NCBI GenBank assembly: GCA_947626535.1
Contig: CANQSO010000005.1
Location: 1-43,193 of the forward strand
Source of the DNA: an uncultured Bacilli bacterium
GTDB taxonomy: Bacteria; Bacillota_I; Bacilli_A; RF39; UBA660
Reading direction: 5' to 3'
Length of the DNA stretch: 43,193 bases
This document shows, piece after piece, positions 28,213 to 36,694 of this stretch. The translations under genes were made by a program, and so were the position numbers. How positions within the stretch are numbered: the first letter of the stretch is position 1; every line of letters begins with the position of its first letter. Under the pieces are notes generated by a model. That model searched no databases, was not told where the DNA came from, and worked only from the letters and a program-made list of their open reading frames with translations.

Positions 28213-28278
28213 ATAAAATATAATGGAATAAGTTTCAAAAATATGCATACAATATATATATAATATATGTATATTAAG

Positions 28279-28307
28279 TTGACAAAACTAAACAAATATG
28301 TTAATAT
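28279..28307 (+). promoter_or_regulatory. Sigma70-type promoter of the toxin-antitoxin operon
   Basis: TTGACA (28279-28284), 17-nt spacer, TAATAT (28302-28307). Confidence 0.6.
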
Positions 28308-28332
28308 ACTATCGAAAAGGAGGGTTGATGTT

Positions 28333-28626
28333 ATGGCTAATTTAACTAGCATTGTTAATGTCAACGTGGATAAAAACTTAAAAAATCAAGCAAATGAAAT
28401 CCTTAATGATTTAGGACTAAATATGAGCACTGCTATTAATATGTTTTTAAAACAAATAGTTAAACGAGATGGACTTCCATTTGAAGTAACAAATCCTAAG
28501 CCAAGTAACGAAATGTTGCATGCTTTAGAAGAGAGTGAAAAAATAATAAAAGAGATAAGAGAAGGAAGAAGAACAGGTTATAATAATATGAGTGACCTTA
28601 TATCTTCTTTAGAAGAGGAATATTAA
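28333..28626 (+). CDS. RelB/DinJ-family antitoxin
   Basis: NLTSIVNVNVDKNLKNQANEILNDLGLNMSTAINMFLKQIVKRDGLPFEV; RBS AAGGAGG; upstream part of the called ORF overlaps the promoter. Confidence 0.92.
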   Translation: MANLTSIVNVNVDKNLKNQANEILNDLGLNMSTAINMFLKQIVKRDGLPFEVTNPKPSNEMLHALEESEKIIKEIREGRRTGYNNMSDLISSLEEEY

Positions 28627-28913
28627 TGAAATTCATTGTAGATTATACTAGTGATTTTAAAAAACAATTTAAAAAAATTAAAAAACAGGGAAAAGATTTA
28701 AAAAAGTTATATGAAGTAATAGAACTTTTAGCAAATGGACAACAGCTAGATTCAAAATGTAGAAATCATAAACTAATTAATGATAAATACTATAAAAAGT
28801 GTTATGAATGTCATATTGCACCAGATTGGTTATTGATTTATAGATATGAAGAAAAAGAATTAATTTTACCATTAATGAATACTGGCAGTCATAGTGAATT
28901 ATTTGATAAATAA
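28626..28913 (+). CDS. YafQ/RelE-family mRNA interferase toxin
   Basis: SDFKKQFKKIKKQGKDLKKLYEVI, CRNHKL, KCYECHIAPDWLLIYRYEE, NTGSHSELF. Confidence 0.92.
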   Translation: MKFIVDYTSDFKKQFKKIKKQGKDLKKLYEVIELLANGQQLDSKCRNHKLINDKYYKKCYECHIAPDWLLIYRYEEKELILPLMNTGSHSELFDK

Positions 28914-33504: not shown

Positions 33505-34923
33505 GTGGGAAGGAGAAAAAGATTGCATAATATTTATAAAATAGGTGATAGTATGAAATTAGGAAAGTATGAAGATAAAGATAAGAAAAAGAGAAAAATA
33601 ATTTTAATAAGTATAAGCATCATAGTAATAATTGGTATATCATTCTTATTAATTAAAACCTTTGCTATTTTTACCGAGAGTGTAGAATTTCCCCTAATGA
33701 ACGGTAAAGTAGATTACTATGGTAATAGTGACTTTTATTTTGTCTTTTATAAGGGAGATAAAGAACTAGATGAAATGCCAAAGAAAGATAATAAAGAAAA
33801 TTTAGTATTTGAACATGGCGAATGTGATAATGGAGCAAGTATTGAATGGGATTATGATAATTGGGAGCCTTTTATAGGGAATTTAGATGTTGGCAAAACT
33901 AGATGTGAATTATTTTTTGATGAAAACTTTGCTACTAAGTTTATAAAATGTGGAAATAGTGAAAAAGATGCTGTAACATGTTTTAAAGAAAATGCTTCAG
34001 TTGATAGTATAAATTTAGCAAGTGATAATACTGATGATAATAATATAAGATATATTGGAGCTAACCCAAATAATTATATAGATATAGGTGATAGAGATAG
34101 TGATGGGAAACCAATATTATGGCGAATAATTGGGGTTATGAATAATGTAGTAAATTTAGATAACGATGAACAACAAGAAAGTTTAATAAAAATAATCAGA
34201 GCAGATAGCATAGGTTCATATAGTTGGGATAGTAGTGATTCTAAATCAAATGGTGGTTATGGAATAAATGAGTGGAGCCAAGCTGATGCTATGAAATTGA
34301 TAAACAAAAAAGATACCTATTTAGATGAACCGGAAATAGGAGGAAGTTTGTATTGGAATAGAGAAGCTGGAAAATGTTATTCTGGACCAACAAATAGCAA
34401 TAGTGATTGTAGTTTTACAACAAATGGTTTAAGTGAAAATGTAAAAGATAAATTGGTTAAAGTAAGATGGAATACTGGAGCAGCTAAATATGATGAGATT
34501 AGAAATATGTATAATATGGAACGAGGAAGCGCTACAGGAAGAGAATGCCCTGGTGGGAATTATTGTACAGATACCGTTGAAAGAACCACAACTTGGGATG
34601 GTTATTTAACTTTAATGTATCCATCCGATTATGGTTATGCTGTAGGTGGTGATAAAAGAGAAACATGCTTAACCGATAATTATTCTGTTAAAGGTTGTTT
34701 TGATAATGACTGGCTTTTTGATAGTACTTCTGCTCAATGGACATTAACGCCAGAAAACAATGCTTCATCAGCTGGAAAAGCATTTAAAATAACTAATCAA
34801 GGAGGTAGGGATACATCTTTTACTAACAGTCTTGGTGCCATTCGCCCAGTTGGTTATTTGAAATCAAATTTTAAAATTACTGATGGGGATGGAACATCAG
34901 ATAATCCCTATAAATTATCATAA
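33505..34923 (+). CDS. Membrane-anchored surface protein, C-type-lectin/DUF6273-like C-terminal region (paralog 1)
   Basis: N-terminal TM; LWRIIGVMNN, GGSLYWNREAGKCY, VRWNTG, TLMYPSDYGYAVGG, WTLTPENN...GAIRPVGYLKSN. Confidence 0.6.
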   Translation: MGRRKRLHNIYKIGDSMKLGKYEDKDKKKRKIILISISIIVIIGISFLLIKTFAIFTESVEFPLMNGKVDYYGNSDFYFVFYKGDKELDEMPKKDNKENLVFEHGECDNGASIEWDYDNWEPFIGNLDVGKTRCELFFDENFATKFIKCGNSEKDAVTCFKENASVDSINLASDNTDDNNIRYIGANPNNYIDIGDRDSDGKPILWRIIGVMNNVVNLDNDEQQESLIKIIRADSIGSYSWDSSDSKSNGGYGINEWSQADAMKLINKKDTYLDEPEIGGSLYWNREAGKCYSGPTNSNSDCSFTTNGLSENVKDKLVKVRWNTGAAKYDEIRNMYNMERGSATGRECPGGNYCTDTVERTTTWDGYLTLMYPSDYGYAVGGDKRETCLTDNYSVKGCFDNDWLFDSTSAQWTLTPENNASSAGKAFKITNQGGRDTSFTNSLGAIRPVGYLKSNFKITDGDGTSDNPYKLS

Positions 34924-34939: not shown

Positions 34940-36694
34940 ATGAGAAAAATAAAAATAATATTAATTAGTTCAATACTGTTAACAATTAGTTTAATGTATA
35001 TAACTATTACAAATCAAAATCAACAAGAAGGAAGTTACCAAATTTCTTATTACATGGGTAATCAAAAGCTAAATAATATGCCGAAGAAAGATGGAATTGC
35101 AAAATTTGACCATGGGGAATGTGATAATGATGCAAGTATTGAATGGGATATTAATAGATGGGGACCAATTGTTAAAAACTTAAGTAAAAATAGGACAAAA
35201 TGTAGTATATATTTTATCAGTAATTTCTCAGATGAATTAGTAAAATGTTCTAATAATGGAACAGATTTGACAACATGTATGAAAGATAATGCTAAATTAG
35301 ACGAAATTAACTTAGCTTTAGATGATACTAACAATCAAAATTTAAGATACATTGGAGCAACTCCAAATAATTATATTGATATTGGTGATAAATATAATGA
35401 AGACATAAATGAATATACATTTAAATATAATAATTCAACTCAAATAGTGCATACAACACTTGAAAATTGTGAAAATGATTTAAGTTATAATGTTGAAAAC
35501 GCAGTAGAAAATGCCAAATGTCAAGAAATTAGAAGCGGTGACTATTGCTTTGATTATACTGAAGTATCTACGGGTTTAAAAAAGAGTTTTTGTGTTTATA
35601 ATGAAAGTATATGTATTCAACAAAAACAAAGCTATAGTTTAAATAGTTTATATAGTGATATAAGCGAATGTTCAAAGAAAAGTCAAGAATATGTATATAG
35701 AGTTTATAATTCTGAAGTTTTGTCAATGACCTTTAATACAGAAGAAGCATGCAATAGTGCTTTATCAAATACATCATTCCAAACTAATTATTATAAAGTT
35801 TTATCTGGATGTGAAACAGAAAACATTCATTCAAAAGGAGAACCAATACTATGGCGAATAATAGGAGTAATGAATAACATAGCTAATTTAGATAATGGCG
35901 GGCAACAAGAAAGTTTAGTAAAAATAATAAGAGCAGATAGTATAGGAAAATATAGTTGGGATAGTAGTGCATCAGGAATAAACTATGGCAATGGAGTAAA
36001 CGAATGGAGCGAGGCAGACTTAATGAAACTATTAAATCCAAATACAGTATATAGTGGAACCCCAACAATCGGAGGAAGTTTGTATTGGAATAGAGAAAGC
36101 GGTAGTTGTTATGATGATGAATATGATGTAAACACAACATGTAACTTTACAAGTATTGGATTAAGTGAAGAAGCAAAGAACAAGATAGCCAAAGTAAGAT
36201 GGAATACAGGGACGTTTGCAACTTATAATGAAAGTGACTGGACAGCAAAAGCAACATATGAAGCAGAAAGAGGAAGTCATAATGGCAAAGAGCAATGTAC
36301 AAGTAATGGTGGAGGAGATTATTGTAATGACAACGTACCAAGAACAACAACATGGGAAGGATATATAGGATTAATGTATCCAAGTGATTATGGATATGCA
36401 GTAGGAGGAAGTGTTAGAGAGACATGTTTAGGAAAAAGTATGCATAATTATAATAGTGATAGTTGTAACACAAATGATTGGTTAAACCCAAGTAGTAACA
36501 TGTGGACAATGACACCATCGCCGGATTCTTCTTATGCTAACTTTGTGTTCCGTGTGCGTTCGTATGGCTATGTCTACAACTACGATGCGTTCTCTGCGAA
36601 TGGGGTTCAGCCAGTCGCTTATCTAAAACCATCTGTTAAAATTACTAGTGGAACAGGTTTAATTGGTTCACCATTTCTTGCCACTTTAGATTAA
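34940..36694 (+). CDS. Surface protein paralog 2, C-type-lectin/DUF6273-like, with a variable-looking C-terminal patch
   Basis: Same core as paralog 1; WTMTPSPDSSYANFVFRVRSYGYVYNYDAFSANGVQPVAYLKPSVKI. Confidence 0.6.
   Translation: MRKIKIILISSILLTISLMYITITNQNQQEGSYQISYYMGNQKLNNMPKKDGIAKFDHGECDNDASIEWDINRWGPIVKNLSKNRTKCSIYFISNFSDELVKCSNNGTDLTTCMKDNAKLDEINLALDDTNNQNLRYIGATPNNYIDIGDKYNEDINEYTFKYNNSTQIVHTTLENCENDLSYNVENAVENAKCQEIRSGDYCFDYTEVSTGLKKSFCVYNESICIQQKQSYSLNSLYSDISECSKKSQEYVYRVYNSEVLSMTFNTEEACNSALSNTSFQTNYYKVLSGCETENIHSKGEPILWRIIGVMNNIANLDNGGQQESLVKIIRADSIGKYSWDSSASGINYGNGVNEWSEADLMKLLNPNTVYSGTPTIGGSLYWNRESGSCYDDEYDVNTTCNFTSIGLSEEAKNKIAKVRWNTGTFATYNESDWTAKATYEAERGSHNGKEQCTSNGGGDYCNDNVPRTTTWEGYIGLMYPSDYGYAVGGSVRETCLGKSMHNYNSDSCNTNDWLNPSSNMWTMTPSPDSSYANFVFRVRSYGYVYNYDAFSANGVQPVAYLKPSVKITSGTGLIGSPFLATLD

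Follow-up and report, generated by a model that had tools for sequence, protein, structure and literature searches.

A short GC-rich patch near the 3′ end of a predicted surface-protein gene is almost certainly a remote variable repeat (VR) of a trans-acting diversity-generating retroelement (DGR), whose template repeat (TR) lies on another contig, C74, of the same draft genome, G000 (Table 1). This reading builds on the TR, a reverse transcriptase (RT), an accessory gene, ten VRs, changes restricted to adenines, and conservation throughout the genus. The patch lies on contig C5, and "the window" denotes the whole 43,193-nt stretch of DNA analysed here. An earlier sequence-only reading had suspected a DGR variable region at this place, saw neither an RT nor a TR in the window, and named a trans-acting DGR or cassette gene conversion as possible sources. 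The list of open reading frames (ORFs) and an ungapped repeat scan of the window agree that both elements are absent from it. The genome search which that reading had called for found both on C74, and these, together with a bAvd-like gene, nine further VRs, and the same system in congeners, bear out the trans-acting DGR.

The patch in the window and its gene

The product of the target gene has a hydrophobic segment at its N-terminus, from which a surface location is predicted, and its variable domain at the C-terminus. The VR lies at the 3′ end of the gene, with 78 nt from its own end to the end of the gene, and about 40 places in G000 carry the target domain. In a DNA search with the template, the VR and the TR share 83% identity (E = 7.6e-24) in a gapless alignment, and both identity edges coincide with the edges of the GC patch. 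GC content is 49.0% within these bounds, compared to 29.7% in the remainder of the gene and 25.6% in the whole window, and GC3 is 0.545 in the patch versus 0.165 upstream of it. All 101-nt windows of the 43-kb contig with GC this high overlap the patch, except two near position 1658. The patch is thus real, in frame, and sharp-edged, as had been proposed, but the bounds first given (36525-36625) have to be moved 8–9 nt to the left; the proposed GC content of about 49% holds for the corrected bounds, while the original ones give 45.5%.

The difference between VR and TR follows the template adenines: 15 of 30 adenines differ, compared to 2 of the 70 other bases (Fisher p = 5.8e-8). Thirteen AAY codons of the template appear in the window VR as GAT, TAT, AAC, TTT, CGT, CGT, TAC, AAC, TAC, GAT, TTC, TCT, and AAT. 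Hence, the earlier interpretation of these codons as AAY altered at adenines was right in substance, except that the TTC at 36548, perhaps included in its count, is constant in the template. The two non-adenine differences (S to Y at 36563 and a silent one at 36599) show that the window VR falls short of a perfectly fresh copy of today's template. As had also been observed, a GC-rich stretch, GGGGTTCAGCCAGTC, closes the patch; in keeping with the usual layout of DGR targets, it is a candidate IMH-like segment at the 3′ boundary of the VR. The hairpin reported at 36693 exists as well, but it follows the stop codon and looks like an ordinary terminator. It is probably an intrinsic terminator without a specific link to the VR; folding supports the hairpin, which the terminator scan missed. 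Rfam yielded no match at the gathering threshold in the window or in C74.

Table 1 Coordinates of the main features (window positions unless a contig is named)
Feature	Position	Strand	Basis or remark
DGR target gene, predicted membrane-anchored surface protein, 584 aa	34940..36694	+	ORF list
VR of trans-acting DGR	36517..36616	+	template G000:C74:1545-1644
GC-rich 3′ end of VR, GGGGTTCAGCCAGTC, candidate IMH-like segment	36602..36616	+	
Hairpin then T run, past stop codon	36693..36726	+	RNA fold −9.0 kcal/mol, z −2.76
Upstream tandem paralogue of target, without TR-like patch	33553..34923	+	45% identity in domain
TR	G000:C74:1545-1644		non-coding repeat
RT	C74:2476-3543		RVT_1, E 2.6e-22

The tandem paralogue, for which we picked an ATG start inside the listed ORF 33505-34923, shares 57% identity with the target across the last 285 aa. 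When the TR was used as a DNA query, this gene gave no match, and on its sequence it appears not to be diversified by the C74 TR. At G000:C26:7985-9637, too, a paralogue without a TR-like patch directly precedes another paralogue, as in the window, and the first genes of the two pairs resemble each other in the VR-equivalent region. This suggests duplication of the whole pair. At the syntenic site of the congener G002, only a 212-aa fragment is found beside typA, with no full counterpart of the target gene. Elsewhere in the window, two small adjoining ORFs (28267-28913) look by eye like a toxin-antitoxin pair of the RelB/DinJ-YafQ type.

A C-type-lectin (or Ig) fold, as expected of the variable proteins of DGRs, is conjectural for the window protein. 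AlphaFold, run with two sequences only (both window paralogues), gave a pLDDT of 30, and a PDB profile search with the alignment profile returned no meaningful match (best E 1.1). The VR-bearing region of a congeneric target (L116, residues 555-614) has a sub-threshold match to DUF6273 (PF19789; E 0.008). The window protein has no match to this family, and the best relative scores 16.5 bits, below the gathering threshold of 23.5.

The template locus and the adenine rule across ten repeats

We searched G000 (140 contigs, 1.53 Mb, 68% complete) for RTs and found two ORFs, one intact on C74 and the other, on C62, interrupted; since the draft is incomplete and fragmented, it is binning and the sequence match that place C74 and the window contig in one cell. 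The order on C74 is target paralogue, strong hairpin, TR, 125-aa ORF, bAvd-like ORF, and RT, so that the TR has its cognate VR gene on one side and the accessory genes on the other. DGR RTs are marked by (I/V/L)GxxxSQ and YxDD motifs, and the translation of the C74 RT contains GLPIGNLTSQ and YMDD. Avd-type accessory proteins are common in DGRs, although not universal. The putative Avd-like gene of C74 has clear similarity to this group, though both matches fall below the curated cut-offs (bAvd: E 2.5e-9, 38.0 bits, cut-off 40; DivGenRetAVD: E 1.3e-13, 51.2 bits, cut-off 80). The 125-aa ORF has a weak match to MutS domain I (E 0.022); an ORF of about this length sits between template and Avd gene in two species (L004 1802-2179 and L126 601-975) and is possibly a DGR accessory protein.

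The interrupted RT belongs to a second DGR-type locus with another target family (L005; C62, 4921-6600). Besides an RT ORF broken by a stop or frameshift, it has an intact bAvd gene, and C45, C8, and C73 contain VR-like copies. No template was found beside this RT.

Searching G000 with the template yielded nine further VRs, on C111, C18, C57, C41, C11, C51, C40, C74, and C82 (all VR counts are lower bounds); nine of the ten lie on contigs other than that of the RT. Pooled over the ten VRs, 151 of 300 adenines are changed, compared to 17 of 700 non-adenines (p = 3.8e-73), with G (68), T (54), and C (29) as replacement bases. Neither adenine of the GC-rich 3′ end (VR positions 93 and 97) is changed in any of the ten. 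The VRs of C57 and C74 contain one additional codon, placed near the AAC run. In the C82 VR (G000:C82:5605-5702), the five non-adenine changes lie in the second half except for one at the 5′ edge, and part of this VR is repeated at a contig end (G000:C112:3813-3837).

The targets on C18 and C111 match exactly over the 449 nt that precede the VR and the 58 nt that follow it, yet inside the VR they differ at 11 positions, 11 of 11 at template adenines. As the two loci diverge farther out, they look like paralogues and not like one gene assembled twice. Gene conversion or ordinary mutation can hardly account for this pattern, which is an indirect sign of past DGR activity.

Conservation in the genus and alternative explanations

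Among the 59 genomes searched, the target domain was present in 35 of the 36 from the genus and in none of the 23 outside it, with 0 to 63 copies per genome in the genus. Homologues of the RT query occurred in 29 of the 59, all within the window's genus, and again in 0 of 23 outside. The 0.9-Mb draft of the congener G005 contains one TR and 16 VRs, all of them A-biased (p < 0.01 each). In G002, an RT fragment is 94% identical to the G000 RT, and the candidate TR of this genome (L104, G002:C90:2054-2153) was rejected: its 5′ half is template and its 3′ half a mutated VR, and the repeat continues into a coding, VR-type 3′ flank, so that it is either an assembly chimera or a product of recombination between template and target. 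We therefore compared the VRs of G002 with the G000 TR, from which eight of them differ at 116 of 239 adenines and at 27 of 560 other bases. The TRs at five congeneric loci differ from the G000 TR at 8 adenines versus 101 non-adenines. This reverses the VR pattern: templates conserve their adenines, and VRs alter them. Viral contigs contained no relatives of the RT and none of the target domain, and phage and plasmid records gave no match to the target protein; the system therefore appears chromosomal and cellular.

Two explanations would dispense with a retroelement. Horizontal acquisition of a GC-rich fragment, or a chance bias in composition, could be suspected from 49% GC within a contig of 25.6% GC. 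The patch, however, aligns codon for codon with a template elsewhere in the genome, with changes confined to adenines, and we regard this origin as refuted by the template match. Cassette gene conversion, the source that the sequence-only reading had offered beside a trans-acting DGR, would copy the patch among the roughly 40 paralogues. It could draw on this large family and on the identical flanks of some copies (C18/C111), and it may have helped to spread the target domain. Conversion, however, moves existing haplotypes, whereas up to four bases occur at the template adenines across the ten VRs and the other 70 positions are mostly constant, and C18 and C111 differ solely at template adenines between their identical flanks. 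As the origin of the patch, it is thus highly improbable and has to be given up in favor of the DGR.

A further question arises within the DGR reading, namely whether the window copy is a relic, perhaps a recent one, that was once diversified by the C74 DGR and has since ceased to be rewritten. Its two non-adenine differences, compared to none among the 70 positions in C111 and C18, are in line with this, as is its 3′ flank, which reads GCTTATCTAAAACC where the other nine VRs have GTATATCTATCATC. Yet the seven remaining VRs (C11, C57, C74, C41, C40, C51, and C82) likewise show 1–5 non-adenine changes each, and the window VR has kept its GC-rich 3′ end unimpaired. On balance, we consider a relic rather unlikely.

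Proposed mechanism and relation to known DGRs

Judged by known DGRs, copying from the C74 template is the most likely mechanism. A non-coding RNA with the template repeat would be transcribed and then reverse-transcribed by the adjoining RT with its Avd-like partner, adenines would be misread in this step, and the mutated cDNA would replace the VR in no fewer than ten scattered genes of the genome, the window gene included. In the C-terminal domain of the predicted surface protein, 13 fixed sites would then be encoded by NNY codons. Since every template codon at these sites is AAY, all outcomes are NNY and no stop codon can arise. Each NNY codon has 15 possible residues, which amounts to 15^13, or about 2e15, combinations. 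Each target gene could therefore alter its putative binding face without the introduction of stop codons; surface exposure and ligand binding of the variable domain are predicted.

DGRs acting in trans on multiple targets are already known. In Treponema denticola, one template serves seven targets in ATCC35405, and DGR-bearing isolates have 2–7 targets (PMC4891356). The present system resembles it in its single TR/RT core with remote targets and A-biased VRs, and several T. denticola targets are predicted lipoproteins (PMC4891356); it differs in phylum, in target family, and in its numbers of VRs, ten in the 1.53-Mb draft and 16 in the congener of 0.9 Mb. In cyanobacteria, remote variable proteins have been assigned to TRs at other genomic locations (PMC7517822), and Trichodesmium erythraeum contains 18 TR/VR loci with two DGR RTs (PMC8867640). 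Dispersed paralogues with a C-terminal variable domain are common to both settings (PMC7517822), but the cyanobacterial variable proteins are mostly predicted to be cytosolic, whereas those described here are predicted to be membrane-anchored. Thiohalocapsa PB-PSB1 likewise has many targets in one genome, where nine DGR loci serve 15 of them and trans action is the best explanation for some (PMC10907252); the DGRs there are linked to conflict systems, and here one TR serves ten VRs. What distinguishes the present system is how many targets there are per template in very small genomes and how large the surrounding paralogue family is, and the number of targets is unusually large for so small a genome.

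Surveys of fragmented metagenomes that require a VR beside the RT miss remote targets, a limit that Roux et al. 2021 themselves state for their contig-based survey (PMC8144416); the nine of ten VRs off the RT contig indicate the possible scale of such misses. With ten VRs in different flanks, this one genome also offers a natural test of how a single template keeps many targets in register. Tentatively, and as a possibility for which we claim somewhat less than even confidence, one DGR template could act as the common writer for an expanded surface-protein family (up to 63 copies), of which 10–16 would be kept diversified at the same time, while copies that no longer match the template would be fixed or archived variants; the result would be genome-wide variation of surface antigens or receptors. 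The findings point to an uncultured gut lineage in which surface diversity is strongly selected for, and the common-writer reading, if true, would mean a genome-wide system of surface variation in a genus of small-genome Bacilli.
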